This document shows, one piece after another, positions 8,985 to 55,500 of a stretch of DNA of 64,000 nt; within the stretch, counting starts at the first letter, position 1; the number at the start of each line of letters is the position of its first letter. The notes under the pieces are model-generated. The model did no database searches, was not told where the DNA came from, and saw only the letters and a program-made list of their open reading frames with translations. The translations under genes were made by a program, and so were the position numbers. Origin of the DNA: Liolophura sinensis (lineage: Eukaryota > Mollusca > Polyplacophora > Chitonida > Chitonidae); the NCBI RefSeq assembly GCF_032854445.1, contig NC_088295.1, positions 77,034,028-77,098,027 on the forward strand. The letters run 5' to 3'.

Positions 8985-10190
8985 GGAATTCCAGTGGCAC
9001 GTGTACCACTGTACTATGATCTGTGTATTAAGGTGGATTAAGGTGGCACTTGTATCACTGTACTATTATCTGTGTTATTAAGGTGGCACTTGTATCACTG
9101 TACTATGATCTGTGTTATTAAGGTGGCACTTGTATCACTGTACTATGATCTGTGTTATTAAGGGTGGCACTTGTATCACTGTACTATGATCTGTGTTATT
9201 AAGGTGGCACTTGTATCACTGTACTATGATCTGTGTTATTAAGGTGGCACGTGTATCACTGTACTGTGATCTGTGTTATTAAGGCGGAACGTGTATCACT
9301 GTACTGTGATCTGTGTTATTAAGGTGGCGCGTGTATCACTGTACTGTGATCTGTGTTATTAAGGTGGCACTTGTATCACTGTACTGTGATTTGTGTTATT
9401 AAGGTGGCGCGTGTACCACTGTACTGTGATCTGTGTTATTAAGGTGGCACGTGTATCACTGTACTGTGATCTGTGTTATTAAGGTGGCACGTGTATCACT
9501 GTACTGTGATCTGTGTTATTAAGGTGGCACATGTATCACTGTACTATGATCTGTGTTATTAAGGTGGCACGTGTATCACTGTACTGTGATCTGTGTTATT
9601 AAGGTGGGCGCGTGTATCACTGTACTGTGATCTGTGTTTATTAATGTGGCACTTGTATCACTGTACTGTGATTTTGTGTTATTAAGGTGGCGCGTGTACC
9701 ACTGTACTGTGATCTGTGTTATTAAGTTGGCACATGTATCACTGTACTATGATCTGTGTTATTAAGTGGCACATGTATCACTGTACTGTGATCTGTGTTA
9801 TTAAGGTGGCACGTGTATCACTGTACTGTGATCTGTGTTATTAAGGTGGCACGTGTATCACTGTACTGTGATCTGTGTTATTAAGGTGGCACGTGTATCA
9901 CTGTACTGTGATCTGTGTTATTAATGGTGGCACGTGTATCACTGTACAGTGATCTGTGTTATTAAGGTGGCAATTGTATCACTGTACTATGATCTGTGTT
10001 ATTAAGGTGGCACGTGTATCACTGTACTGTGATCTGTGTTATTAAGGTGGCGCGTGTATCACTATACTGTGATCTGTGTTATTAAGGTGGCACGTGTATC
10101 ACTGTACTGTGATCTGTGTTATTAAGGTGGCACGTGTCATCACTGTACTGTGGATCTGTGTTATTAAGGTGGCGCGTGTATCCAATGCAG
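8985..10190. repeat. 40-bp minisatellite array (array 1 of the satellite block)
   Basis: About 29 head-to-tail units of the type ggtggcacgtgtatcactgt + actgtgatctgtgttattaa, with 1-3 substitutions or single-base indels per unit. Each unit contains the interrupted palindrome ATCAC-tgtact-GTGAT. Subtypes (cacttg, cacgtg, gcgcgtg; actatg or actgtg) are interspersed, with the cacttg/actatg type enriched at the left end. There are no unique spacers between units, so this is a minisatellite and not a CRISPR-type array. Confidence 0.95.
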
Positions 10191-11566
10191 TCTTAACTGT
10201 GATATCACAGTGTCATTTATATCATTGTTATCTGATATACAATATTGAGAGGGGAATCCATCACTGTAAGTTCATCTGTGGTATTGAGATGGTATTTTTA
10301 TCACTGTAATTTCATCGGTGATACTGAGATGCATTTCTATGATTTCAATCACTGTTATACTCATCTGTGATATTCAGGTAGTATTTCCATCACTAATCTA
10401 ATCTGTGATATTGAGATGGCATTTCTATCACTGTAATTTCATCTGTAATACTAAGATGGCATTTCTATCACTGTAATTTCATCTGTAATACTAAGATGGC
10501 ATTTCTATCACTGTAGCCTAATCTCATCTGTAATACTGAAATGGCATTTCCAATCACTGTAATCTCATCTGTGATATTGAGATGGCATTTCTATCACTGT
10601 AATTTCATCTGTAATACTAAGATGGCATTTCTATCACTGTAGCCTAATCTCATCTGTAATACTGAAATGGCATTTCCATCACTGTAATCTCATCTGTGAT
10701 ATTGAGATGGCATTTCTATCACTCATGTAATTTCATATTACACTGAGATGGCACTTTCATGATTCTATCCCTATGATCTAACCTGTTGTATTCAGGTGCC
10801 ACATTTCTATCTTTTCAACCGCAATTGTGGTATTATTCACTGTATCACTGTATTAACTGTGATATTGGAATGGCACATTTGCAACTGTGATATCAAGGTG
10901 TTTCATCTTCTTTATCAACAATTTCAACTGTGGTATCCGAGTTTTATTGATTCCAGTGTTCTGGCATCTGTACTTCTATGCACTTCTGTCATTGCAATCT
11001 CAGTTATGATTTATGGCCATATTCAGTTGTTCCACACATATATGTTAAATGTAAGGCATCATCACACATCTTACCCACCAAATCTGACTTTTAATGTTGT
11101 TCTAACAATTGTGTGTAGACAGTGCAGTTATCCTGACTGAGGCATTGGCTTGCTAGTACTGTCTCTTGAGTATAAATGTGGTCTTCAGGTTATAAGTGCA
11201 TTTGCTGTCATCTCATTTGTTATACCCAGACGGTGCCTTATACGTACTTCCATGACATTTATATCACTATTATCAGAGATGATAGTTGTATAAATTCTCA
11301 TTTCAGATATCCAAATTGCACTGTTATCTCATTTTCAGGTTCAATTGCTCGCTGTCATCAGTTTTGTTTTCAAGCTATATTGCGGTAATCTGTATTCTCA
11401 AACCATGATATTCAGCGTATATTGTTATCTTTGTTGTCTCTCATATGATATTCAAGTTAAATTTCTATAACTATGAGTTTTTTCCTGATATTCAGTTTGG
11501 ACTGATATGTCTTCTATTCCGTGATATGCAACCCATACTGCTGCTTGAATCTCTGCCATCTCATTT
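10191..11566. repeat. Degenerate middle of the 40-bp satellite block
   Basis: From about 10261 to 10760 the units become gatggcatttctatcactgt + aatttcatctgtaatactaa (again 40 bp), with indels. From 10790 to about 11560 only scattered echoes remain (tatcactgt, tgtgatatt, tctcatttgt, attcaggt). Words shared with both flanking arrays (atcactgt, ctgtgat / catctgtgat) suggest that the whole region is one ageing satellite. No gene is seen; the 114-codon frame at 10796-11140 is repeat-derived. Confidence 0.75.
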
Positions 11567-12120
11567 GTGATATTCAGGTTATATTGTTATCACTGTCATC
11601 ATCCAGGGTATTCCAAGTTATATTGTTATCAACTGTTATCTCATCCAGGGTATTCAAGTTATATTGTTATCACTGTCATCTCATCCAGGGTATTCAAGTT
11701 ATATTGTTATCACTGTCATCTCATCCAGGGTATTCAAGTTATATTGTTATCACTGTTATCTCATCCATGGTATTCAAGTTATGTTGTTATCACTGTCATC
11801 TCATCTACGGTATTCAAGTTATATTGTTTATTCCTGACATCTCATCCAGGGTATTCAAGTTATATTGTTATCACTGTCATCTCATCCAGGGTATTCAAGT
11901 TATATTGTTATCACTGTCATCTCATCCAGGTATTCAATTTATATTGTTATCACTGTCGTCTCATCCAGGGTATTCAAGTTATACTGTTATCCCTGTCATC
12001 TCATCTCGGGTATTCAAGTTATATTGTTATTCCTGACATCTCATCCAGGTTGTTCAAGTTATATTGTTATCACTGTTATCTCATCCAGGGTATTCAAGTT
12101 ATATTGTTATTACTGACATA
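11567..12120. repeat. 40-bp minisatellite array (array 3 of the satellite block)
   Basis: About 14 units of catctcatccagggtattca + agttatattgttatcactgt, 40 bp each, 85-100% alike by eye. Because 40 is not a multiple of three, a translated frame repeats every 120 bp (40 codons). All three forward frames are partly open, producing apparent proteins of up to 212 codons that should not be annotated as genes. Weak decay continues to about 12300. Confidence 0.93.
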
Positions 12121-12300
12121 TCACCCATGCTTTTTAAGTCATATATTGTTACATATATCTCTGTCATCACTCCGTGATATTCAAGTCTTATTTCACTGTT
12201 GTTAACTCACCCGCGATATACAAGTTATATTATGTTATTGATGTAATGTCAACCATGATGTTACCAACAATGTCATTTCAAATGTGATATCCACATACAT

Positions 12301-30800: not shown

Positions 30801-33800
30801 ATGTTTTGGAATCACATAGTTTACTTTGTAATTTCAGCCAGTATTATTTCCCTACCTTGTGAGTGCCATAGGACATGGTAAACCAGATGAGAGTCTGAAG
30901 ACATCTTTAGGTCAGCTAATAAAGAAGCTTGACCAGCAACTTCATGGAAAACAATTTGTTGTTGAGGTATGTAATGTTCTCTAGTTTCGTCATTGGTATA
31001 ATTGCATCGTTCACATATGTATTACTTATGTTTTCTCCTCGGAAGTTGCTTGATGAATCACTGACTCAGGTGTAGCTGGTTGAACATGTATGGCTTGTTT
31101 TCCAGGATATACTGTAACATCTGCTGTTAAACCATTGTCATGTTGTCTTACTCAGGGGGAGATAACTGGTGCTGATATAGTCATTTGGAGTTCACTGTAC
31201 CCAGCTCTCTGCCCTAAGGGAGCTTTTGCAGGTAAGTTCTGACCATGTTCATACCATGTTTTTCTATACCCCATCTAAAAAGGACCTGGATGGAAGAGGT
31301 TGTGGTGATTCTAGATTTGTCTGCCTGATTTTGTGTGTGTGTGGTGTGTGAGCAAGATCTCAAAAACTCAAATTTGGTGCACACTTTTGTAACACTGTGT
31401 TTTCAATCAAATGAATTTTCGTTGAAGATTTCTTAATATTTTAACCATTAACGATTTTTACCATTTTTAAAGGTTTTCAATGTTACACTGTGCCTGAACT
31501 AAGCCGTGAGTGTATTTCTCAGAATTCATGTTGAGAATGGGACACATGTTTTGAAAGGTCTCTAGTTACATTTAGCATCTTACTGAACTGTACATGTGGA
31601 AATCATTTTTTTTCTGTTTAAAAACATATCTGAAAAGTACAAATGTCACCATGCCACATTACCCAGTCATCCGTTGCTGCTTATACATATTTTGTATCTT
31701 AAATTACCTCTTTATGTTCAGAAATGTTGCCTGAATAAAATGTCAGTTTTTGATATAGTACATCCAGTTACATTTCCATTAATGGTGAATTACCTAAAGT
31801 GTTGCCAAAAATTACATTTTTATAGTATATTTATTGGTTTTCATCCTGAAACTCCTAAAATTTCCCATTGCTAACTTCCAGACACACCTTTATAAGATCA
31901 GCAGAATTCATTTACTGCACTGAGTACAAAAATCATATTTATGAACAAATTACTGGTTCAAATTGGACCCATGTTCATGGTACTGGGAACCAGGCTCGTC
32001 ATTGGTTCAAATATGCTGTGTAAATAAGGACATTTAAACTGTCTCATTAGAATATGAATTTATGAATTTTTTTGTTATTTACATGTACATGTATGTGATT
32101 TGCAAATAAATATGGTGAGATGAGGTGTAAACTGCTAGACTAAGAATGGATGTTGAGTTGATCATGACCATACTACATATACATCTTTGCAGGCATCAGC
32201 CAAACTGTGAATTTACATTTTATGTTAGATTTATTGTAAATATATATATATCATTAAATGCAAATATATTTATTGAGGTTTAAATATAAACTGATTTTAT
32301 CCATATCAAGAAAAAAAACCAATGTTTTGACTGACATAACTTCCTAATTTTGGATTTCAATGTACACATGTACACAATGCACAATGTCCGTATTTGTGCC
32401 TGGGCACTAAGTCCACCAGTATTGCACATTGAGTTGTAATTTTTGGTGGATAGATAGATACACAGGTGACTGTGTCGCTCCTCACATTTGTCCATTTTCA
32501 TGGCTGTCATGGTGGCCAGATAGCCGTTTTACTTACATATACTATATAAATAGAAATGATTTGTGTCAGGGCTATAACTCCAACCGTTTTCAGCATAAAG
32601 TTTTCATTTCTGATGGACACCATCGTCCACTTGTACGGTTGTCATAGTAACCACATACCTATCATCAACACCCATGAAGATTCTTCTCAGGGGTTATACT
32701 CACCACAATACTGCTGGTATTGTTTTATACATTTCAAACAATTCCATTTGTTGGGGCATGTGTTGCGCTCACCTGAAATCTTGTTGTGTATGTCACAGGC
32801 TGGGAGAGTGAGTTCAAGTCAGTGAAACAGTGGTTTGACAGGCTCCTTCAGTTACCTGCATTTTCAACTGCAGTTGAAACAGTAACGAAAGGAAAAGGTG
32901 TTTCTGCATTCAAGGTATTTACTGACAGCATATTTTGGATCTTACAGTTGGCATCTGCTGTACATGTATTTATTTATTTGATTGGTGTTTTACGCCGTAC
33001 TCAAGAATATTTCACTTATACGACGGCAGCCAGTATTATGGTGGGTGGAAACCGGGCACAGCCTGGGGGAAACCCATGACCATCCGCAGGTTGCGGCCAG
33101 ACCTTCCCACTTATGGCCGCTGTACATGTAGATTGCTGACTTGCCATCATCATTCATTCATATGTTAAACAAGGATGACCCTCCATCTGATCTCTGAGTT
33201 TTGATACTTGTCAATTTTACATCCTTGAGAAATGGTGGCATGACACATCTTGCAAACCTCTTACGAATGGGGGGCATTAATAATTTACTATGTTAATCAT
33301 AACGCAGAGTGGTAGTGGAACAGTTGTGGGAAAGAGAGAGCGAAAAATACAAAAACAAAAGAACATCCATTCATTTCCTAAATTTGAACAGTATTACTAT
33401 CTGGCTTTACCTGTCATAATGATATTGAGCTCAAATGTGGCATGCCAGTTGCTGCACTGCTCGGCTGACGAAGGTGTGGAAGGAGACTTCACTGCTGATT
33501 CAGTGTAATGTGATTACAGTAATGTGATTACAGTAATGTGACAGATTTTATTCCTGTCGTGTCCATGTGGTGTTCCAGTACCTTTAAAATGTCTTACTCA
33601 AGTAAAAAGTCGTAAAACGTTGTAACCAGTAATTCTTAAATGTGCGTGCATTGACCAGCTTTGTGCTGAATTGTGCCCATGATTCACTTTCTTTTCACTG
33701 AACATCCTTAAATATTTCACCACCTGCAGTGAATGTTGCAAGCCATGAGTTGTACATATTTGTAGTTGTCTCACACTTTGTGTTGTTCTTACCAGACACA

Positions 33801-37500: not shown

Positions 37501-40500
37501 TCAATAATGCATTTAAACAGACTATTTTCTTTTAGAAGATGTACATAAGTTACCAATACTCTTAACTATTTCCATGCATGTGAACTGTGCTTAAATCTTT
37601 ACTCACATTGTGGTTCTTTCTGCTGTTCATATCAGTCACTAGTGGAATGGAGGAGGCCAGTACTTCTGCTCCTGCTTTGTTAACTTTTAGAAACATACAA
37701 GCCAGATACATTTTGTGAATAGCACTTTTTCTGTGACACGGTTGTGATTTATGAAGCTTGTCTTTTCTGGCAATGTCTAAAATTACAACGATGGGCATTT
37801 TTTATTATCATTTGCTGGTGCAGTGCAGTGCTAAATCATATGCAGCTATTTTTCACTATTGACTCCCATCCTCAGTGTCAGCGCTTTGAAATGAAGTGCT
37901 TCACTGCAGTGCACTCACTGACATGGGTTCTTTAGCTTATCAGTGGAATACATTACAGGTACATAAGTATTGAAGAGTAATATATAATCTCTGGTGACAA
38001 AGCTGTTTCTGTGATTTAAGATACTGTAATCTGACATTTGGACAGAAATGAGCGATATGCCATGACTGAAATGTTTTATGAGAAAGTGTTTCATTGTTAA
38101 CTTTGTTCATTTAGTGGTTATGGTATTGTATGCACTCACATGCTTGTACTTAAGTTGGAACTTTTGAATTGCTGAAATGCGATGGCTGCATTTACTGCAT
38201 AGACAGTTTTTTGCTGTTAATTATTGAATGTCAGCACATAAGAGATGGACATGTACATCTATACTGTTTATGAGGAAGAAAAAAGAAACACACAAGTAAA
38301 AATGTCATTACTATATCTGAAACTTGCTTATGCGCTCATTTACTAATTAGAATTGTGTATATATATATATATATATATAGGCTCTAAAATAAACTCAGAT
38401 AGCATCTCAGAACATCTAGGCTGCCCCCGGACCGCAGCAAATGATGGATCATCAAACATCTGCCTACTTTTGGGCAGCAGCCTGCTACTTCAAAACTTCA
38501 AAACACCCTGTAGACATACATACATGCAGTTACATACATACATTCATTTATGCATATACATGTATTCATGCATACATTCACATATATAGTTACATACATA
38601 CAGGCAGGGATTCCTTCCATTATAGTTGGGTGACTTCTGGTGACTGCTATATAAGGAATTTTATTCTGCAGACTGCTGTCATTGGCTGAAATGTTGTGAG
38701 GTGGTAAAATAACTGTGATTACGTCTTAAATCTTTAATCCACAGATACTGTAAATTACGGAACTACAACTCACTGTATATCTGTGGAACAGATGAGTACG
38801 GAACAGCCACAGAGACAAAGGCCATGGAAGAGGGGATAACTCCGCAAGAAATCTGTGACAAATATAATAAGCTTCATAAGGAGATTTACGAGTGGTTCAA
38901 CATTGGCTTTGATTATTTTGGCAGAACATCAACAAATCAGCAAACAGAGTGAGTAGGCACAAGTCAGATCCTCTTGTGGTATTGAAACAGGCATTTTCAA
39001 GTGGCCTGGCCATTTTTAGAGTATATACCAGTAGCTCTAGCCATCTGTGACAAAACTTATCAGTAAATTATCAGTCAGAGTAATACAGGAAGTGTAAAGC
39101 ACAATGATATCCAGAGAAAGCTTTTTAAACTGTACCCTGTCCCTGGGTTTCCCCCTGGGTCTGCTCGGTTTCCTCCCACCATAATGCAGGCTGAAGTCAT
39201 ATAAGTGAAATGTATTTGAGTATGGCGTAAATTACCAATCAAATAAATAAATAAGTGAATAAATAAAATGTACTCAGCTATAGAAGAAATACAAAAGAAA
39301 ATTTTTCACTTGTATGGCCATCAGTGATAGTGACACCAACCTAATAATCCTTACTAACAGTAGGTTCTTTGGATATTTGATGAGAGTTTGTTATCTAGAT
39401 TTCTCTTTTAAGCAAGCCATCTGTAGTAAGAACATTATTGCATTATAGCATTATAGCATGAAATTTGGTGATGCACTCCATTGGTTAATTGCTCTTGCTG
39501 TCATGACTGCAGATGTAAATCAGGAGGTACAGTATGACTTGTAGCTGCTGGAGCTCAGTGGTTTACTACAGGGACTCCTATTTCCTCAACCCATAATCCT
39601 GACTGGTGTCATACAACAATATCTAATGGAGCTCAGTGGTTTACTACAGGGACTCCTATTTCCTCAACCCATAATCCTGACTGGTGTCATACAACAATAT
39701 CTAATGGAGCTCAGTGGTTTACTACAGGGACTCCTATTTCCTCAACCCATAATCCTGACTGGTGTCATACAACAATATCTAATGGAGCTCAGTGGTTTAC
39801 TACAGGGACTCCTATTTCCTCAACCCATAAACCTGACTGGTGTCATACAACAATATCTAATGGAGCTCAGTGGTTTACTACAGGGACTCCTATTTCCTCA
39901 ACCCATAATCCTGACTGGTGTCATACAACAATATCTAATGGAGCTCAGTGGTTTACTACAGGGACTCCTATTCCCTCAACCCATAATCCTGACTGGTGTC
40001 ATACAACAATATCTAATGGAGCTCAGTGGTTTACTACAGGGACTCCTATTCCCTCAACCCATAAACCTGACTGGTGTCATACAACAATATCTAATGGAGC
40101 TCAGTGGTTTACTACAGGGACTCCTATTTCCTCAACCCATAATCCTGACTGGTGTCATACAACAATATCTAATGGAGCTCAGTGGTTTACTACAGGGACT
40201 CCTATTCCCTCAACCCATAATCCTGACTGGTGTCATACAACAATATCTAATGGACTCAATGTGGTTTATTTTTGTTTTTGTTTATTTCAGGATTGCTCAG
40301 GATATATTCTGGAAGTTGTACAATAGACAACTGATTATAAAGGACAGCATTGAGCAGCTCTTCTGTAATATATGTGAAAGGTAAGAGTTATTAAAACAAA
40401 CTGAAACTGGCTCACATGGTAACTCCCACTAGTAAGTGGTAAGTAATTAAAAATACCTAGAAATATTTTAAGAATATTCAGTAATCACTGTTCTCTGAAA

Positions 40501-43500
40501 TTGTCTCACCATTACATTGTTTTAGACTCACACATGAACTTTTTGGATCAGATAGTTTTAACAGCTTTATTTTTTGCTTAAGTTTATGTTCACTGTTTTG
40601 CAGAGGGAATCTGTCATTAGTATAGTCATTAAAAATGTGTTTGTGTGGTGAAACTTAAACAATCGTGCAAAAAAGAGCCCTGTTCTAAAGTTTTCATTGT
40701 TTTAATATTCTCTAATTCTTCAACTTTTTCAACTGCCTCTGCAACCAATATTTTGAAACATTCTGAGATAACTGTGGGGTGAAGAGCAGTAATTTGCACA
40801 GTTAAATGATTTTTTTTTTTTTTTTTTTGATTGGTGTTTTACGCCGTACTCAAGAATATTTCACTTATACGATGGCGGTCAGCATTATGGTGGGTGGAAA
40901 CCCCCGGGGGAAACCCACGACCATCCGCAGGTTGCTGCAGACCTTCTCACGTACGGCCAGAGAGGAAGCCAGCATGAGCTGGACTTGAACTCATTGCATT
41001 GATGAGAGACTCCTGGGTCATTACGCTGCGCTAGCGCTTTAACCGACTGAGCCACGGAGGCCCCCACAGTTAAATGAAGCTTGCATTATTAATGGCCTGA
41101 ACAAATCGTTAATTAGTGCAATTATCTTGATAATTACATGTATATGTATAACTCCTACCGAAAAAAGTTCTTTAGTGGTTGAAAAGGTTCAAGATTTACA
41201 ATGATTTGTTTTGTTTCATTGTTAATATCTTCACATTCCCCATCTTTTTCATAGGCCAGAGAAAAAAATAAGAAAACAATTACCAACTAACAATCCCTAT
41301 TATTTCTTAAATAGGGTCAGGTTACATGCTGCAACAAGTTTTATAACAATATAGGGTCAGGTTACATGCTGCAACAAGTTTTATAACAATATAGGGTCAG
41401 GTTACATGCTGCAACAAGTTTTATAACAATATAGGGTCAGGTTACATGCTGCAACAAGTTTTATAACAATATAGGGTCAGGTTACATGTGAGTTTTGTAA
41501 CAATATAGGGTCAGGTTACATGCTGCAACAAGTTTTATAACGATATAGGGTCAGGTTACATGCTGCAACAAGTTTTATAACAATATAGGGTCAGGTTACT
41601 TGCTGCAACAAGTTTTATAACAATATAGGGTCAGGTTACATGCTGCAACGAGTTTTATAACAATATAGGGTCAGGTTACATGCTGCAAAAAATTTTATAA
41701 CAATATAGAGTCAGGTTACTTGCTGCAGCGAGTTTTTTAACAATATAGAGTCAGGTTACTTGCTGCAGCGAGTTTTGTAACAATATAGGGTCAGGTTACA
41801 TGCTGCAACAAGTTTTATAACAATATAGGGTCAGGTTACATGCTGCAACAAGTTTTATAACAATATAGAGTCAGGTTACTTGCTGCAGCGAGTTTTATAA
41901 CAATATAGAGTCAGGTTACTTGCTGCAGTGAGTTTTATAACAATATAGAGTCAGGTTACATGCTGCAGTGAGTTTTATAACAATATAGGGTCAGGTTACT
42001 TGCTGCAGCGAGTTTTATAACAATATAGGGTCAGATTACATACTGCAGTGAGTTTTATAACAATATAGGGTCAGGTTACTTGCTGCAGCGAGTTTTATAA
42101 CAATATAGGGTCAGGTTACATGCTGCAATGAGTTTTATAACAATATAGGGTCAGGTTACATGCTGCAGTGAGTTTTATAACAATATAGGGTGAGGTTACA
42201 TGCTGCAATGAGTTTTATAACAATATAGTTATGAAGATGTCTGGTGACTAGTGGTATAAATCATTATTGAAAAGTACACGTCGGTGACTTCTTCCAGGTT
42301 TTTGGCTGACCGTTTTGTGGAAGGAACTTGCCCTTTATGTGGTTATGAAGATGCCAGGGGTGACCAGTGTGATAAATGTGGTAAACTGATCAATGCTGTG
42401 GAACTTAAGACACCCAGATGTAAGATGTGCAGCGCAAGTCCTTCAGTAAAATCTACACAGCATCTCTTCCTGGATTTGCCTAAGGTAAAATGCACCCTAC
42501 TTCAAATCATAGTGTTGACCTCACCTCTAGAAAATTCAATGCAGAAACAAAAAGTAGTTAATTCATTTCAAGTCTCAGATTGCTGCATGTATTTTTATAT
42601 GTTTTACAATTTCAACATACACACACAAGATACCTGTACATGTAAATACCTGTGACTTCCATAGCATAACACAACGCAAAAAATCAGGGCTTCTTTAGTT
42701 AGCTCTGCTGATGTTGTTAAACATCTCAGTTGTGTGTACATGTGGGCAATAGTGAATTTTTAGGTACTTTACAGCTTTAATAGCTTCTACCTTAAGGTAA
42801 ACTAAGATGTCAGCTTGGCCAAGTCTGTGCAGCTTACATCAACATGTAAGTCTTTCATACTATCCATCACTCTATGGTTCATACTTTCATGGGAACATTT
42901 TGAAGGGTTTTGGGACATAGAGTATAGCAAACCTAGCTTTATCTTAAATGTCAATTTCCATAAAATCCACACATCAACTTGGACATTAACACGCTGAAAA
43001 GTAGCTTTTTTAGTCTCTGAAGTGGCTGTAATATGACATTTCTAAATACGCATGGAACACACAGTTATTAAGCCATTGTTTTATCTGTAGGTGATGGAAG
43101 AAAATTATTTACATTTTAAAATTTCTCCTCAGCATGGTGAGTCACTGTGTCTACTGTTTAGGTATTATTTGGAAGTTCTACACATCATTAATGCTGGAGT
43201 TTGGCACATGGTACTTTACAGATTGAGCCAGAATTGAGCAGACATCTTAATCGTGTATTCACATCTGGTACTTGGACTTCTAATTCCAAGACAATAACGA
43301 ACTCTTGGATACGAGATGGTCTAAAGCCGCGGTGTATCAGTCGTGACCTCAAGTGGGGCACACCTGTGCCGCTGGAGGGATACACTGACAAGGTAATATA
43401 ATATGGAGTTATGTGTATGTCCATTGCAAATGGTCGCCTGATTGGGAGAGGGTTTATCTAGTGAGTGAAAATGTCACAGATATTTTTTTAGTCTTCAAAG

Positions 43501-46500
43501 ATAAATCTTCTCAACCTAATACTGTAATAGTTTCTCTTCATACAATAAATAAATGACTTGCGTTTATGATGTTGTATTGTGTCCGTTGGCAGTGAGAGCC
43601 TTATCAGCCTGGTGTTGCATTAACTAAATGTGCATTTATAAGATGAAATATGCCTTGTAGAGCTTTTTTTTCACAGGCATATCTGATTTACTGTGCCTCT
43701 AAGTTTCTTGTGAGACACCAGTGTAGCTGAGACACTCCAAGTCTTGTCAGATGTCAAACAAGCACAGTGCTTTGCGACACTCCATTAACATTGAGTCACA
43801 ACTGAGACTTTAAAAGAGGAAGTTGTGACTTCCTCGCTTGGCATTAATGAGATAGTAGGAAGGGATAGTGCAACCAATGGTATAATGGTAAGAGCTCGGG
43901 CGGGGCACCTTACTTGCCTTGGGTAAGGCGTCTCAGTGAAGCAGCACTAAATAAAATAGAGATGGAAATTCGTCCTGCAGCAAGGAGGCACATTTCATGC
44001 ACTCTAAGGATTCCTTCGTCGTCATATGACTGAAAAATTGTTAAGTACGACGTTAAACTCCAAGCACTCATTTACCATTACCATTGTTTGATAAGATGCA
44101 TTTGCAGTTCACACTACTGTACACACTTTACAATCCATAGTATTCACAGCTCAGTGGTCATCACACTTTCTACACAAATGAAAACTTGATGATATAATTA
44201 TGCATGTGGTTTCTCACACAGAGCCTACACTAAAGCCATGTTACATTTAGTCATCCCAAGCTTGTTTGCCAAGGAAGTGATCATTTATGTTAATTTATCT
44301 GTTTGTATTTTAGGTATTCTATGTGTGGTTTGATGCTCCTATTGGGTATATTTCCATCACAGCAAATTACACTGACCAGTGGAAAAAATGGTGGAAAAAT
44401 CCAAACAAGGTAAGGAATTTCCACATTGAATTTGTCACAAAACATACATGTTCTGGCTGCATTTAGCCTCATCATATTGGATTTGCAACCATTAGAGACA
44501 ATAAACTGAAGTCACCAACATCAAGGTGCATTTCTAGAACAATTATATTCAATCACATAAAACAACAACTGCAAAGACAAGTACATGTGGCTCACACCAA
44601 CACAGACAATGGAACGTGCACATGATGTGCACGTTTCCCATCAGCCTATGCCATCAGGAGTTCATGTACGGTTACACAGTTACTTCCCCTAATTTGTCTG
44701 ATCATTAACATTCAGCAAATTCAAGTCATAAAAGGGGTGTGTCAAGACCCAGTGGTTTGTAAGGTGCTAACCTAAAATAGCCAGGTCACCAGATACATGG
44801 ATTAAACCCAGTTCTGAGTCAGGGGATTTTTTATAGATTCCCCTGCATTCAATTGTTCTCAAGACCTTGGTTACAAGATGAATTTGACGGTGCTCTCTTT
44901 TGTGATCTTCACTGGAGATCCCTTTCTGTGCACCAGTATGAAGTAAACACGACACCGGGGTTTCCATCACCCATAAAACTGCCAAGGTGTAAAATGAAAA
45001 ATTCTTCACTATACCTTTAAACAACCAAAAAAGACAACAGAATAAATCTTCATGAACAATCTGTTCCTGAAGTATATTCTGGAAGCAGCTGTTCTAATAG
45101 ATATATCATTTAATGGTAGAAATGTATGTCAGGTAAATTTTTGTCATTCTGTTTACAGTGTTTCCGGGGCCGCCGTGGCTCAGTTGGTTAGCACGCTAGC
45201 GCAGCGTAATGACCCAGGAGCCTCTCACCAATGCGGTCGATGTGAGTTCAAGTCCAGCTCATGCTGGCTTCCTCTCCGGCCGTACGTGGGAAGGTCTGCA
45301 GCAACCTGCGGATGGTCGTGGATTTCCCCTGGGCTCTGGCTGGTTTCCGCCCACCATAATGCTGGCCGCCATCGTATAAGTGAAATATTCTTGAGTACGA
45401 CATAAAACACCAATCAAATAAATAAATAAAATGCAATGTTTTCACAATTCGCGTAAGTTGCTGTGTAAAACTTAATCCACTTAGACATCAGATGTGCTTC
45501 TTTCCCCGTCAGAAAGTTTTATCAGGTGTGGTGATGTGCATGTGGGTTTATATACACATCAATAAACTTGACAAAATAACATTGACTGTCTTGTAGAAAG
45601 CGAGTCACGAAAATAAATTATAAATGACGTGTTTGTATGTTTTTCAGGTAGAGATGTATAACTTCCTCGGGAAGGACAATGTGCCATTCCACAGTGTGAT
45701 TTTCCCTTGTACCCTGCTAGGAGCGGACGATAACTACACAGTTGTCAGTCACATGGTTGCTACAGGTACTTAAACCCTGATTTGTTTTTAGATTGAGGTA
45801 ATCTCTCACAAATTCCTTCATGGACTAAGCAGTCAAAATTTTCCATTTTTCAGAACAACAGATCAAGCACATTCTTTGTAATTTCTGTACTCCTGTCTGA
45901 TTGAACAGCTTAATTAACTTGTTCTCTGTAATACCCCAATCTGGAAATACTATGTGTTCAAAAGTGAATTGCCAGTGTTATGTGTAAGCTGCGACAACTA
46001 AACCATAAGCCAATAGTCCCCTATTGATTTATCTCCCTTGAGGTTATTCTCCCATATAGGCATGTTTGTCATGTTTTATAGAGTATACTTCAGGTGAGAT
46101 TTCTGAAAATGGAAAATTGTGACATTTTGAAGGTTAAAATGCCATGTAAGTTGATGACCAGACTTCATTATAGAGATGTGCCTGTTCTTACAAATCTGGT
46201 AAATGAGCAGAGAGAACCTGTTCAGTCAGTGCACAGTTTAACTTGACCTCAGTTGGAGAATGAAGAGTGTGAATAATACCACAAACAGCTTTGGCATACT
46301 GTTGAATGAGAGCCAAAATTAAGACATCAACTTCATCCAAGAACTTGTGCCATTATTGTGGCTCATTTCTACATTTTGTTTTCCAGAAAACACTTGTTGC
46401 TGTTACAACATAACTACGAACAGTATGCTTCACTTAGATACTCTTCTTTCTTATATGCCCAAGGGAGATAATTCAGTGGAGACCTATTTAAGCACATGTA

Positions 46501-49500
46501 GATTTAGGTAGTTCAGCTAGGGTTTGAGAAACTTTCAACTAGTTTCAGGAAAAGCTGTAATTTGGCATCAAATCATCCTAGATATATTAACAAATGGCTG
46601 GATTTGGAGTTGTAAAATAAACAATGAAGAATGCATGACCACCTTTCCAGGGTTCTGCTTTCAGTCCTTAATCTCTAACTACTTCCCTCACTAACAGAAT
46701 CATGCCCGTCATTTGGCATTATGGAAAGATACATGTTTTTATGAATGTATGTTCAACTGTTCAGAGTATTTGAATTACGAGGATGGGAAATTCTCCAAGA
46801 GCAGAGGTGTGGGTGTGTTTGGGAATCATGCCAAAGAGACGGGAATACCTGCTGATGTCTTCAGGTTTTACCTGTTGTATGTACGCCCAGAGTCACAGGT
46901 AAGAGAACAGCCCGAAATCTTCATGTTTTACCTGTTGTGTGTACGTCCACAGTCATAGGTAAGAGAACAACTGACATCTTCAGGATTTACCTGTTGTGTG
47001 TACGTCCACAGTCACAGGTAAGAGAACATGCTGACATCTTCATATTTTACCTCTTGTGTGTACGTCCACTGTTATAGGTAAGAGAACATACTGACATCTT
47101 CAGGTTTTACCTGTTGTATGTACGTCCACAGTCACAGGTAAGAGAACATACTGACATCTTCAGGATTTACCAGTTGTGTGTACGTCCACAGTCACAGGTA
47201 AGAGAACATGCTGACATCTTCAGGTTTTACCTGTTGTGTGTACGTCCAGAGTCACAGGTAAGAGAACAGCCCGACATCTTCATGTTTTACCTGTTGTATG
47301 TACATCCAGACTCACAGGTAAGAGAACATGCTGACATCTTCATGTTTTACCTGTTGTATGTATGTCCAGAGTCAAATGTAAGAGAACATGCTGACATCTT
47401 CAGTTTCTACCTGTTGTGTGTACGTCCACGGTCACTGGTAAGAGAACATACTGACATCTTTAGGTTTCACCTATTGTATGTATGTCCACAGTCATAGGTA
47501 AGAGAACATACTGACATCTTCATGTTTTACCTGCTGTATGTACAGTCATGGAAAAAATTATTAGACCACTCATATTTTCTTTGGTTTCTTGTTCATTTTA
47601 ATGCCTGGCAACCCTAAAGGTGTATTAACCGAACATTACAATGAATACGACAAAAATCCAGCTGATTCCATAATACTTTGTCGCATTTGATATGCTTTAA
47701 GGTCAGTTGTATTCCTAGGGTGTATGTGAGGCAATTTCATGCTTTCCATTTACATGCAGACTTACATAAAGCGTGGTTTCCTGTTTACATGTAGGCTTAC
47801 ATAAATAGGGGTCTCTTGTTTATATATTAAGACGCAGCACAACTCGGTAGTTGTCAGCTCTCATAATGCCTAAAACGAAAGAATTATGTGGAGCCAGAAA
47901 GGCAGCCATCTTGGCACAGCTGGATACTGGATTGAGCGAGCGACAAGTGGCCAAAAAACTGAAGATCTCTAAGACAACAGTTCATTACACCAAGAAAAAG
48001 CAAGCCGAACATGGTACTACAAAACTGCTAGCTGGTCGAGGCAGGAAACGTCTTTCTACCCCTTGAGATGACCGAGCACTCATCCGGTCCTATATCAAGA
48101 ATCGTCGTCAGACCTCCAGAGACCTTAGAAATGAGGGGCATTGTCAACAAATGTGACTTGTTCAGCAAGAACAGTTCGAAACCGACTTCTTGAAGCTGGT
48201 CTAAAGTCGCTCAGGGCACGGAAGAAGCCCTTCATCAACGAGAGGCAGCGGAAGGCTCGCTTGCGTTTTGCGAGGGATCACAAGAATTGGACTGTTGATG
48301 ATTGGGCTAAAGTTCTCTTCAGTGATGAATCCAATTTTGAGTTGATGCCTACTCCAGCCAACTCACTGGTTAGGAGGAAGCCTGGGGAAGCCTACAAACC
48401 AGACTGCCTTGCTCCTACTGTAAAGCATGGGGGTGGATCAGTGATGATCTGGGGTTGTTTCAGTATGGGTGGAACAGGACAGATGCAGTTGTGTGAAGGG
48501 AGAATGAACCAAGTCACATACAGAGCTACTCTTGAAAACAGTCTTCTTCCATCAGCTACTAAACTCTTTCCTGGCTCGAATGACTGGATTTTCCAACAAG
48601 ACAATGCCCCTTGCCACACGGCAAGGTCAGTTAAAACCTGGATAGAGAACCGGAACATTCGAACCATGAATTGGCCTGCTCAGTCACCTGATCTGAATCC
48701 AATTGAAAACCTGTGGAATATTATCAAGTTCAAAATGGAGAACCACAAGCCCAAAAACAAAGCAAATTTGTTCGAATTTTTGCAACAGGAATGGGCTGCT
48801 GTGACCGCAGGGCAATGTAACAAACTGGTGGAGAGCATGCCAGGGCGCATGGCTGCAGTCATCAAAAACAATGGGCATGCAATCAAGTACTAACTCCCGT
48901 GTGAGACTGAGAGTCATGTGACTGCGTGACTAGGAGACAGGAGAAAAAATGAAATGCCAAAATGTTTTTGAGAATACAGTTGCCACATCTACAGATGTAT
49001 GAACTTAAGTGATTTTGGTCATTGTCAAGAAAGTCATAGAGAACTGATAGATATCACCTCTTAAATAAAACCCTTATGAACTATTTCTGTTTTCATCACT
49101 TTCTTTGCCCAAACAAATGTTCCTTCAGTTGTGCAAGGTTTTAAAATGAACAAGAAATGGGAGAAAGCAAGGGTGGTCTAATAATTTTTTCCATGACTGT
49201 ATGTCCACAGTCACAGGTAAGAGAAAATATTGACATCTTCAGGATTTACCTGTTGTATGTACATCCACAGTCACAGGTAAGAGAACACTCTGACATCTTC
49301 AGCTTCTACCTGTTGTGTGTATGTCCACAGCCACAGGTAAGAGAACATACTGACATCTTTAGGTTTTACCTGTTGTATGTACATCCACAGTCACAGGTAA
49401 GAGAACATGCTGACGTCTTTAGGTTTTACCTGTTGTATGTACATCCACAGTCACAGGTAAGAGAACATGCTGACATCTTCAGCTTCTACCTGTTGTGTGT

Positions 49501-52500
49501 ATGTCCACAGTCACAGGTAAGAGAACATACTGACATCTTTAGGTTTTACCTGTTGTATGTATGTCCACAGTCACAGGTAAGAGAACATGCTGACATCTTT
49601 AGGTTTTACCTGTTGTATGTACATCCACAGCCACAGGTAAGAGAACCTACTGACATCTTCATGTTTTACCTGCTGTATGTATGTCCACAGTCACAGGTAA
49701 GAGAACATACTGACATCTTCATGTTTTGCCTGCTGTATGTATGTCCACAGTCACAGGTAAGAGAACATACTGACATCTTTAGGTTTTACCTGTTGTATGT
49801 ACATCCACAGTCATAGGTAAGAGAACATACTGACATCTTCAGCTTCTACCTGTTGTGTGTATGTCACAGTCACAGGTAAGAGAACATACTGACATCTTTA
49901 GGGTTTACCTGTTGTATGTACATCCACAGTCACAGGTAAGAGAACATGCTGACGTCTTCAGGTTTTACCTGTTGTGTGTACGTCCACAGTCATAGGTAAG
50001 AGAACATACTCACATATTCAGCTTCTACCTGTTGTGTGTACGTCCACAGTCACAGGTAAGAGAACATACTGACATCTTCATGTTTTCCCTGTTGTGTGTA
50101 CATCCACAGTCACAGGTAAGAGAACATACTGACATATTCAGCTTCTACCTGTTGTGTGTATGGATTTACCTGTTGTAATTACATCCACAGTCACTGGTAA
50201 GAGAATGTGTTGGCATCTTCATGTTTTCCCTGTTGCCTGTACATCCACAGTCACAGGTAAGAGAACATACTGACATCTTCAGGATTTACCTGTTGTGTGT
50301 ACATCCACAGTCACAGGTAAAAGAACATGCTGGCATCTTCAGGTTTTACCTGTTGTGTGTACGTCCACAGTCACAGGTAAGAGAACAGCCCCACATCTTC
50401 ATGTTTTACCTGTTGTATGTACGTCCAGAATCAAATGTAAAAGAACATGCTGACATCTTCAGGATTTACCTGTTGTGTGTACGTCCACAGTCACAGGTAA
50501 GAGAACATGGTGATGTCTTTCAAGTTTTTACTGTTGTGTGTATGTCCAGAGTCACAGGTAAGAGAACATGCTGATGTCTTCAGGTTTTACCTGTTGCATG
50601 CATGTCCAGAGTCAAATGTAAGAGAACATGCTGACATCTTCAGTTTCTACCTGTTGTGTGTAGGTCCACAGTCAGGGTAAGAGAACAGGCTGACACCTTC
50701 AGATTCTACCTGTTGTATGTATGTCCAGAGTCAGAATTAAGAGAACAGGCAGACATCTTTCAGCTTGTACCTGTTCTATGTACGTCCAGAGTCACTAGTG
50801 GGAAAACAAAGTGATGTCTTACCTTTAGAATGTCCATGAACTAATAATGAAGTACACTTCTACCAAGGTCTGTTTCACTGTATGAGTACATATCCATGTA
50901 CATATAGTAGCTGTACATTTTTAGCTTCTTCTATTTAGAGGGTATTTTCTTAAATTACCCACACAAAGAAAAGGAGAAAAAAATCTTTCTATTTTGTATT
51001 GTAATTTCTCACAAATTTTGGTAGAGCAACTCGTTAATGTGGAATGAATTCTGTTCTCACATTTTAGGACAGCAGTTTTAGTTGGGATGACTTTCAGCTG
51101 AAAAACAACAGTGAGTTGTTGAATAATCTGGGTAATTTCATCAACCGAGGCCTGATGTTCCTCAGTAACAACTTTGGTGGGACAGTTCAGGAGATGGTTT
51201 TGACCGAGGAGGATCAACAACTTCTGGCACTGGTTAATTCTGAGCTGAGCACCTACGTAGAGAACATGGAGCAGGCCAGGTGAGTGTAGAGGTGAACTGA
51301 CTTCTCCTGGTGCTGGTTAACTCTAAGCTGAGCACCTACTTGTATACAGAGAAGATGGAGCAGGCCAGGTGAGTGTACAGGTGGACTGACTTCTCCTGGT
51401 TTTGGTTTGCTCTGATCTGAGCACCTATGTAGAGAAGATGGAGCAGGCCGGGTGAGTGTACAGGTGGACTGACTTCTCCTGGTGCTGGTTAGCTCTGATC
51501 TGAGCACCTATGTAGAGAAGATGGAGCAGGCCAGGTGAGTGTACAGGTGGACTGACAGCTCCTAGTCCTGGTTTGCTCTGATCTGAGCACCTATGTAGAG
51601 AAGATGGAGCAGGCCAGGTGAGTGTACAGGTGGACTGGCAGCTCCTGTTGATGGTTAGCTCTGAGCTGAGCACCTACATGTATACAGAGAAGATGGAGCA
51701 GGCCAGGTGAGTGTACAGGTGGACTGACAGCTCCTGTTGATGGTTAGCTCTGAGCTGAGCACCTACATGTATACAGAGAAGATGGAGCAGGCCAGGTGAG
51801 TGTACAGGTGGACTGACTTCTCCTGGTGCTGGTTAGCTCTGAGCTGAACACCTACATGTATGTAGAGAAGATGGAGCAGGCCAGGTGAGTGTACAGGTGG
51901 ACTGACTTCTCCTGGTGCTGGTTAGCTCTGAGCTGAACACCTACATGTATGTAGAGAAGATGGAGCAGGCCAGGTGAGTGTACAGGTGGACTGACTTCTC
52001 CTGGTGCTGGTTAGCTCTGAGCTGAACACCTACATGTATGTAGAGAAGATGGAGCAGGCCAGGTGAGTGTACAGGTGGACTGACAGCTCCTAGTCCTGGT
52101 TAACTCTGAGCTGAACACCTACATGTATGCAGAGAAGATGGAGCAGGCCAGGTGAGTGTACAGGTGGACTGACAGCTCCTTGTGCTCATTAGCTCTAAGC
52201 TGAACACCTACATGTATGTAGAGAAGATGGAGCAGGCCAGGTGAGTGTACAGGTGGACTGACTTCTCCCGGTGCTGGTTAGCTCTGAGCTGAACACCTAC
52301 ATGTATGTAGAGAAGATGGAGCAGGCCAGGTGAGTGTACAGGTGGACTGACTTCTCCTGGTGCTGGTTAGCTCTGAGCTGAACACCTACATGTATGTAGA
52401 GAAGATGGAGCAGGCCAGGTGAGCGTACAGGTGGACTGACAGCTCCTTGTGCTCATTAGCTCTAAGCTGAACACCTACATGTATGTAGAGAAGATGGAGC

Positions 52501-55500
52501 AGGCCAGGTGAGTGTACAGGTGGACTGACTTCTCCTGGTGCTGGTTAGCTCTGAGCTGAACACCTACATGTATGTAGAGAAGATGGAGCAGGCCAGATGA
52601 GTGTACAGGTGGACTGACTTCTCCTGGTGCTGGTTAGCTCTGAGCTGAACACCTACATGTATGTAGAGAAGATGGAGCAGGCCAGGTGAGTGTACAGGTG
52701 GACTGACTTCTCCTGGTGCTGGTTAGCTCTGAGCTGAACACCTACATGTATGTAGAGAAGATGGAGCAGGCCAGGTGAGTGTACAGGTGGACTGACAGCT
52801 CCTAGTCCTGTTTAACTCTGAGCTGAACACCTACATGTATGCAGAGAAGATGGAGCAGGCCAGGTGAGTGTACAGGTGGACTGACTTCTCCTGGTGCTGG
52901 TTAGCTCTGAGCTGAACACCTACATGTATGTAGAGAAGATGGAGCAGGCCAGGTGAGCGTACAGGTGGACTGACAGCTCCTTGTGCTCATTAGCTCTAAG
53001 CTGAACACCTACATGTATGCAGAGAAGATGGAGCAGGCCAGGTGAGTGTACAGGTGGACTGAAAGCCCCTAGTCACTTTTAGCTCTGAGCTGAACACCTA
53101 CATGTATGCAGAGAAGATGGAGCAGGCCAGGTGAGTGGACAGGTGGAGTGACAGTTCCTGGTACTGGTTAGCTCTAAGCTGAACACCTACATGTATGTAG
53201 AGAAGATGGAGCAGGCCAGGTGAGTGTACAGGTGGACTGACTTCTCCTGGTACTGGTTAGCTCTAAGCTGAACACCTACATGTATGTAGAGAAGATGGAG
53301 CAGGCCAGGTGAGTGTACAGGTGGACTGACAGCTCCTAGTCCTGTTTAACTCTGAGCTGAACACCTACATGTATGCAGAGAAGATGGAGCAGGCCAGGTG
53401 AGTGTACAGGTGGACTGACTTCTCCTGGTGCTGGTTAGCTCTGAGCTGAACACCTACATGTATGTAGAGAAGATGGAGCAGGCCAGGTGAGCGTACAGGT
53501 GGACTGACAGCTCCTTGTGCTCATTAGCTCTAAGCTGAACACCTACATGTATGCAGAGAAGATGGAGCAGGCCAGGTGAGTGTACAGGTGGACTGAAAGC
53601 CCCTATTCACTTTTAGCTCTGAGCTGAACACCTACATGTATGCAGAGAAGATGGAGCAGGCCAGGTGAGTGGACAGGTGGAGTGACAGTTCCTGGTACTG
53701 GTTAGCTCTAAGCTGAACACCTACATGTATGTAGAGAAGATGGAGCAGGCCAGGTGAGTGGACAGGTGGAGTGACAGTTCCTGGTACTGGTTAGCTCTAA
53801 GCTGAACACCTACATGTATGTAGAGAAGATGGAGCAGGCCAGGTTCATATGCAACATTAACACATTTGTTGAATTCGAGGTCACAACAGAGCAAATTGCA
53901 CTGTGTGAATGCAGCTTAATGCATCAATGTGTATCTCATACTGATGAAAAAACATCAAAACGTATTTCATTAATTTCAGGTTAAGAGATTCCATCCGTAA
54001 CATCCTGTCAATTTCTCGCTATGGCAACCAGCACATGCAGTACAACAAGCCATGGATCCTGGTCAAGGGGAGCAGTGAAGAGAAGTATGAACAGCTGTTC
54101 ACTTGAGAAAGTTTAAGGAGAGCACAGGGAAATGACATATTCAAGCATTTTCATCCACCCATTTCTGCTGTTACCTGTTTTAACAGATTGACATCTTCCC
54201 TATGATTAGTAATGTTATTGGGCATGAATTTGTGTCCAGCTATGGCTCCATGCCTGTGGCATTATGTCATGCTTCACACTCGTTCATTTCCTCATTTTCC
54301 ATGGTAACCAGATTTCAATTTTCCATGTCTAAGCCTGGACTATAACTCAGATTGTTTTGATTTTGGTGGTACATAATAAATACAGAGGTGATGATGTTCC
54401 ATTGGTTTACACAGTTGTTATGGAAACCAGATTGCAACTTTCCCTCTATATACAGCTGTATCTACTATATAAATGGGAATATTTTTGTTTAGGCATTAAT
54501 CCTGAAAGATAAAAACAGCATACTTGTGGTAAATCACTGAAGTTTACAAATTCTTGATGAACTGTGACAGTGTACTGGTAGAAGACAAGCAGTATTCAAT
54601 GAACATTAGACATTAGTGCATATCGCCGCACATGCACCATTGGCTGTTTTTTGTCACCAATGCATTACAGCCTATGAAAGTAGCAAAATACAGATAATTT
54701 TGCAGGGTTATATTATAATACAGACATAGAAGAATAAAATACTGGATCCATTTTTCCATTTTGCAGGTCTCGGGCAGGCACAGTGGTCAGTCTGGCATCT
54801 AACATCAGTGCCCTTCTGTCAGTGCTGCTTCGTCCTTACATGCCATCTGTGTCTGTGACAATACAAGAACAACTTCAACTCCCAGATGAAGCTGTCATCA
54901 TTTGTGATCAGTTTGTCTGTCAGTTACCACCAGGTCACAAGATTGGCAAGGTGAGAAATTGGCACTGACAGAGCTACAGTAAATCACCTATAATTTCATG
55001 AAATTTTCACCAACTATTCACCATTCTGCCCATGTATGCACTGTTGTACAGAAAGGTGATTAGGTGGTGAAATGCTTCATGAAATTACATGGGATTTACT
55101 GTACTTTCTCCATGTATTTGTTCACTACTGGCAAACTAAAAGAAAATTGGTACACACTTGTATTTATTTAAAAAATGATGGGGCGATTATTAACAGTGAA
55201 TATAGATTGTTTTGCACTGTAGTGCCACATGTTTCTACAGTGGGTGTTGATCATCTACAAATAGCATCTTTCGAAGTCAGGAGATCCGTGATCAAACCCA
55301 AGTTGAGTCATCCCAAACACGTTAAGAATGGTACTTGGTGCTCAGCACTGAGAGGTAAGAGCAGGGAAACAGGACTGTATAATGTGACTGGGTGGGGTGT
55401 CATGTCTGGTGTCTCCGGCATGATACTTGCTGCAGAGTTATATTGGCAGCCTGGACTCGCTCTAACCACAAGAAAACCCATGTATCTGTACACACCTAAT

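Follow-up and report, generated by a model that had tools for sequence, protein, structure and literature searches.

The choice among equally strong splice sites is usually studied with engineered duplications, and in minigenes carrying a duplicated 5′ splice site, strong donors of equal quality favour the intron-proximal site. Zhuo et al. are said to have described, in 2007, human alternatively spliced introns that originated from tandem arrays. For potato RdRp, one report describes how a short tandem duplication across an intron-exon boundary, at the acceptor, makes a new intron, and ATP2A1 and fission-yeast cases are also cited there for such intron gain (PMC4974935). Another report places the Caenorhabditis elegans CeRep25B element, a 24-base intronic minisatellite, near alternative exons and in clusters at many loci (PMC4039745). 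Here we analysed a 64,000-nt stretch of the genome of the chiton Liolophura sinensis (assembly GCF_032854445.1, contig NC_088295.1, positions 77,034,028 to 77,098,027; hereafter the window, numbered from its first letter), in which two consecutive introns of the methionyl-tRNA synthetase gene MARS1 hold tandem arrays, A and B, built from the end of the preceding exon together with its own 5′ splice site. We consider it likely that both arrays are intronic minisatellites that arose by tandem duplication across the exon-intron junction and that are tolerated through use of the exon-proximal site.

The identity of the gene and the position of its authentic donors were established by homology. The spliced exons encode a protein that aligned without gaps to PDB entry 5gl7, 'Methionine--tRNA ligase, cytoplasmic' (E=6e-64), which we take to be the human enzyme, and this alignment crossed both the ESQ|DSS and the QAR|LRDS junctions. 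Because the joined exons align without a gap, the authentic donor of array A is fixed at 46899 (gtaaga, 46899-46904, forward strand), and the gapless QAR|LRDS junction places that of array B at 51280-51285 (gtgagt, forward strand). The exons ending at these sites, for which we keep the numbers 16 and 17 as labels taken over from an earlier note on this DNA, lie on the forward strand at 46765-46898 (the KFSKS exon; Pfam tRNA-synt_1g, E=3.7e-9, and 5gl7, with the 5′ end set by eye at an AG) and at 51068-51279 (Pfam tRNA-synt_1g and 5gl7); the following exon, at 53980-54084 on the same strand, was defined by the splice aligned to 5gl7. Of eight MARS1 exons taken from the window, five held a methionyl-tRNA synthetase (MetRS) or WHEP domain above the Pfam cut-off; another matched an anticodon-binding domain below it. 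The exon 17 protein had a single match across the assembly, and no signs of a pseudogene were seen in the exons examined, which do not amount to a reconstruction of the whole gene.

Array A consists of 60-bp head-to-tail units running from 46850 to about 50818, as delimited by Tandem Repeats Finder (TRF) and by unit analysis; a transposon divides it into a 5′ part at 46850-47542 and a 3′ part at 49200-50818, both on the forward strand. Comparison of the exon with the unit showed that each unit reproduces the last 49 nt of exon 16 (46850-46898) followed by 11 nt of intron (46899-46909). We counted 38 donor positions spanning 46899-50798, or 37 donor units when a stricter anchor was used. The GT was intact in 37 of the 38 donors and the nine bases CAG|GTAAGA (−3 to +6) were exact in 24, the authentic donor included. 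The intron holding the array is 4169 bp long, of which the array takes about 2264 bp and the transposon about 1657 bp, and a TAG at 46956-46958 directly precedes donor 2. These results bear out much of what the earlier note had claimed, namely that some 38 copies of a genuine exon-end/donor junction (here established by unit comparison and by the donor fixed at 46899) keep the donor in nearly every copy, fill most of the intron so that about 250 bp of ordinary sequence is left, and carry a TAG right before the second donor. Other parts of that description had to be given up. A unit of ~40 nt of exon plus ~20 nt of intron was dropped in favour of 49 + 11, and the frame said to be held open through the array by the 60-bp period meets its first stop already in unit 2. 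This open frame is incidental, given the TAG that precedes the donor of unit 2; nor does it look like a meaningful feature, as no coding pattern by codon position was found and the arrays at other confirmed exons mostly have periods that are not multiples of three.

The transposon inside array A (47543-49199, forward strand, 1657 bp) is of the Tc1/mariner type, as judged from its sequence ends, its open reading frames and the Pfam domains DDE_3 and HTH_Tnp_Tc3_2 on one of two open frames, and its reading frame is interrupted. It has terminal inverted repeats, is inserted within one unit and is flanked by a TA target-site duplication (47541-47542/49200-49201). Its insertion is younger than the array A unit that it interrupts.

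The next intron holds a second array that was absent from the earlier note. TRF and unit analysis delimited array B at 51220-53844 on the forward strand, with 29 donor-bearing units of 83-89 bp, each made of about 60 nt of exon end (51220-51279), the donor and the start of the intron. The GT was intact in 28 of the 29 units and CAG|GTGAGT was exact in 24 of them. Array sequence takes up nearly all of the 2700-bp intron (51280-53979), with about 135 bp left over. A short match, ACTTCT at 51220 and again at 51300, was considered as a microhomology behind the origin of array B and then dropped, since its second occurrence opens copy 2 and does not show how the ancestral intron began. That MARS1 was hit by two donor arrays is striking, and we make no claim that this exceeds chance.

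In each array, 24 donors share identical bases from −3 to +6, and therefore each authentic donor is accompanied by 23 identical decoys, from which no difference in strength over these nine bases sets it apart. When each donor of array A was joined to the next exon, an open frame resulted from donor 1 only of the 38. In array B, reading on meets a TGA at the donor itself, and therefore any later donor fails. Since the frame is lost with later donors, the protein requires the exon-proximal donor, and from these frames we predict that the spliceosome uses it. The earlier note had argued that splicing from a later donor would cut the protein short, which the frame test supports, and that the spliceosome must pick the first donor. 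For the latter, the requirement extends well beyond array A, as in 11 of the 13 donor arrays at confirmed exons (arrays A and B and those of the 11 genes described below) the reading frame would shift or run into a stop if donor 2 were used, while the choice that the spliceosome actually makes is a prediction from these frames.

Arrays of this kind were also found at other genes. Donor sample 1, collected with 7- to 9-base words, comprised 33 distinct arrays among the matches listed, mostly from the start of C1; 31 were fetched (the paralogous array C2:176925 and C3:23271050 were left out), and peptides from 11 of the 31, chosen by eye, were run against Pfam, where five scored above the cut-off. 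Donor sample 2, collected with ten-base words on several contigs, comprised 29 arrays among the matches listed, all of which were fetched; 30 peptides from 25 of them were run against Pfam, with four above the cut-off, and two of four peptides matched in the PDB. Over both samples, a confirmed coding exon ended at the first donor in 11 of the 60 fetched arrays, 36 of which had been tested by homology. These exons encode GH31, MH2, SUFU, AP5Z1 and Fe_hyd_lg_C domains in sample 1, and RIBIOP_C (BMS1/Tsr1-type), GNT-I, guanylate cyclase and Metallophos domains in sample 2 (all above the Pfam cut-off), together with POLE (L057, E=3e-12) and SGLT (E=5e-16), identified through the PDB. Donor-junction arrays are present, then, in at least 11 genes besides MARS1, which is not an isolated case. 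No PDB match was obtained for the exons of L014 (DERA-like), L015 (Arf-GEF-like), L021, L062 (triokinase-like) and L068 (HELLS-like). The DERA-like exon reached only E=0.0027 in NCBIfam, far below the cut-off, and L064 matched NUDIX_4 at E=1.5e-4, also below it; neither was counted, and several other arrays that looked coding by eye were left uncounted as well. A stop lies at the donor in L028. At the GH31 alpha-glucosidase exon (L013, G000:C1:26351300-26354300), the 39-bp donor array is open for 91 codons past the exon fragment and the next donor is in frame and looks closer to the consensus (GTAAGT vs GTATGT), so that a minisatellite-encoded insertion in this protein is possible.

Mirror arrays were found at acceptors. 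We fetched 20 of the 21 acceptor arrays among the matches listed (C3:5452661 was left out) and ran peptides from 4 of the 20, again chosen by eye, against Pfam. In two of these four, a DEP (L034) and a YjeF_N (L050) exon, both above the cut-off, start at the last copy; L042 matched the NCBIfam family sss only at E=0.034. The stretch with the DEP exon has four acceptors, of which the three upstream shift the frame and the last keeps it, therefore the last one must be used. The required site would thus be the first to be transcribed in donor arrays and the last in the DEP acceptor array, and what the two appear to have in common is that it adjoins the body of the exon. Donor arrays alone cannot part first-come choice from exon definition; acceptor arrays can, and this single acceptor array, judged by its reading frames, would speak for recognition across the exon rather than for first-come choice. 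A common exon-proximal rule would be expected if the exon, and not the intron, is the unit of recognition.

The recurrence of donor arrays was next weighed on a genome-wide scale with donor words. We scored triplets, that is, a donor word occurring three times at 55-85 spacing, with the reversed word as control; because hits inside one array are not independent, all triplet counts serve as indications. CAGGTGAG formed 2046 triplets vs 254 for its reversal, or 6.9% per site (2046/29766) vs 2.8% (254/9028). Raw counts also exceeded those of the reversal for CAGGTGAGTA (126 vs 16) and CAAGGTAAGT (19 vs 2). For CAGGTCAG, whose donor is broken by a single base, the figures per site were 3.4% (723/21492), and 1.9% (252/12960) for its reversal. 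Several of our results speak against the view that donor and acceptor arrays are built from exon junctions and spliced at the exon-proximal site. The non-independence just mentioned is one; moreover, the per-site excess of CAGGTGAG over CAGGTCAG is only twofold, the raw excess is about twofold for AGGTAAG (3318 vs 1639) and CAGGTAAGT (314 vs 167), and the acceptor word TTTTKCAG was not enriched per site at all (0.364%, 436/119660, vs 0.379%, 221/58288). In sample 1, the frames that run open into the first donor exceeded those at control GTs in no significant way (p=0.32; 30 of 31 arrays, L030 being omitted as its array reaches the locus edge; the first donor was shifted upstream by hand in L012, L013 and L015, and 2120 was used for L013, whose donor is actually at 2138), so that many arrays bearing AGGTRAG do not lie at exon ends. 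The GH31 (+39 nt) and guanylate cyclase (+42 nt) arrays could use donor 2 in an open frame, and in the YjeF_N array (L050, G000:C2:25316070-25317570) two of five upstream acceptors are in frame (+45 and +90 nt). Sample 2, on the other hand, did show longer open frames into the first donor, with a median of 55 codons vs 27 at controls (p=3.6e-5; 25 of 29 arrays, without L061, L065, L066 and L071, where the first donor lies too near the locus edge). The null result in sample 1 and the positive one in sample 2 therefore indicate that short donor words collect many arrays away from exon ends and that long ones are richer in genuine junctions.

In the explanation that we prefer for arrays A and B, a short segment spanning the 3′ end of the exon and the 5′ splice site would have been duplicated in tandem in place, and the anatomy of the arrays suggests that they then grew, and were partly homogenised, by unequal exchange or slippage. 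The original donor would remain at the end of the exon and its use would remove all later copies as intron, exon-derived parts included, the extra donors being decoys retained through the youth and turnover of the array rather than through selection. Equivalent arrays have formed in other genes at donors and, mirrored, at acceptors. When the assembly was searched at the DNA level with 50360-51640, a segment that covers units of both arrays, 13 matches were returned, all of them within the MARS1 locus; no unit of either array was found outside it, in a search that may miss very common words. Within that search the unit did not occur at many loci, as that of a dispersed satellite or transposon would, and neither array has the look of a dispersed satellite inserted at this place; the units derive from the adjoining exons. 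Both arrays lie in introns and consist of several head-to-tail copies of a unit within the ~10-100 bp range of minisatellites.

Variation among units was examined column by column. Neighbouring units diverge by about 15% in array A, where adjacent units are as divergent as distant ones, and by about 8% in array B, which has a weak six-unit higher order (6.1% at lag 6 vs 7.6-9.7% at other lags up to 12). Variation at codon positions 1, 2 and 3 was 13.3, 10.9 and 9.4% in array A and 6.1, 5.8 and 8.0% in array B, so that third positions vary no more than the others in A and slightly more in B. The six CpG columns of array A were its most variable (18.9% vs 8.8% in other non-CpG columns), and the two of array B showed no excess (5.2% vs 6.6%); variation concentrated at CpG is the expectation for array A if the gene body is methylated, and array B is without it. 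Neither selection on donors nor coding constraint was seen in the unit-column variation of the two arrays, and no constraint on the unit was found beyond array turnover. The variation fits minisatellite turnover and not coding or donor selection.

The same data bear on the rival that survives best, according to which the repeated donors are functional and kept by selection, repeated recruitment of the U1 small nuclear ribonucleoprotein aiding exon recognition or blocking premature polyadenylation in the intron. The intact GTs (37/38 in array A and 28/29 in array B) and the 24 exact nine-base donors in each array would agree with it, as would the low variation of the donor window (−3 to +6) of array B, 1.9% vs 6.6% in other non-CpG columns. 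The corresponding figures in array A are 7.0% vs 8.8%, and when all windows are ranked by conservation, 14 of the 60 in A and 22 of the 89 in B come ahead of the donor window, which is 15th and 23rd, respectively. Per site, moreover, the excess of donor-bearing words over the broken control is no more than twofold, and we regard selection for repeated donors as improbable. Recursive splicing, in which CAG|GT would act first as a 3′ and then as a 5′ splice site so that the intron is removed in jumps, has the appeal that every jump would recreate an identical junction. The five real MARS1 acceptors have a pyrimidine content of 0.50-0.75, and the 20 nt before each CAG|GTAAGA of array A average 0.54, close to the 0.55 of the exon 16 acceptor and higher than the 0.50 found at a later exon. 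The mean is 0.25 in array B, and the arrays can be explained without such a step; we consider this proposal very unlikely. An error or collapse of the assembly, to which long tandem arrays are prone, has a slightly smaller chance still of accounting for the arrays, given the divergence between neighbouring units (about 15% in A and 8% in B), the transposon that sits in array A with its target-site duplication and the occurrence of similar arrays on several contigs. Finally, translation of the arrays, with a late donor adding a 20-residue repeat to the protein, is suggested by the period of 60 and the many units of array A that are open in frame, yet it is already contradicted for MARS1 by the TAG in unit 2, the TGA at the array B donor, the single donor of array A that is open, the 5gl7 alignment without insertion and the lack of a codon-position pattern, and has almost no probability left.

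An essential gene thus offers natural introns in which 20-40 near-identical donors lie side by side, and the mirror case exists at acceptors of other genes; the cell probably keeps choosing one right signal among many near-identical decoys. Junction arrays of this type would represent a tolerated route for intron growth from the 5′ end, and they are a likely trap for gene predictors. We tentatively raise a broader possibility, to which we give well under an even chance: the spliceosome may be so strictly exon-proximal that identical decoy donors, or mirror acceptors, are invisible to it, and junction minisatellites would then accumulate genome-wide as a class. If true, many natural introns with multiple splice sites would set exon definition, first-come choice and intron definition against one another in what they predict.

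Other repeats were noted in the window. Minisatellites of 40 and 78 bp lie between MARS1 exons at 39549-40268 and 41311-42228, where they stop short of the visible exon, and further ones of the 40-/78-bp class occur at 9037-10758 and at 11571-12151. The open frames at 32777-33079 (forward strand), 39075-39305 (reverse), 40806-40988 (forward) and 45259-45441 (reverse) encode a similar peptide and are probably a dispersed repeat.

Compared with known systems, arrays A and B resemble ordinary intronic minisatellites (variable number tandem repeats) in having tandem units of tens of bp in introns, with units 8-15% apart, and differ from them in that the unit spans the exon-intron junction and carries the exon end and the donor. 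They share with the arrays attributed to Zhuo et al. tandem units that contain splice signals. In duplicated 5′ splice-site minigenes, as here, identical donors compete; the intron-proximal site is favoured there, whereas most of the genes described here need the exon-proximal donor. CeRep25B is likewise an intronic minisatellite discussed together with splicing, but it occurs at many loci, and the MARS1 units, which stem from the exon next to them, turned up at this locus alone. A literature search over titles and the openings of abstracts returned no report of arrays built from the donor junction of an exon. As far as searched, the nearest published case is the potato RdRp duplication over an intron-exon boundary (PMC4974935). 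There, as in arrays A and B, the duplicated segment carries splice signals; one duplication at an acceptor boundary gave a new intron in potato, whereas in MARS1 a donor boundary that already existed is present in up to 38 copies, with no new intron seen. Both minisatellites and duplications that cross a junction are known, and it is the multi-donor array as a recurrent class that, within the literature searched, appears to be new.

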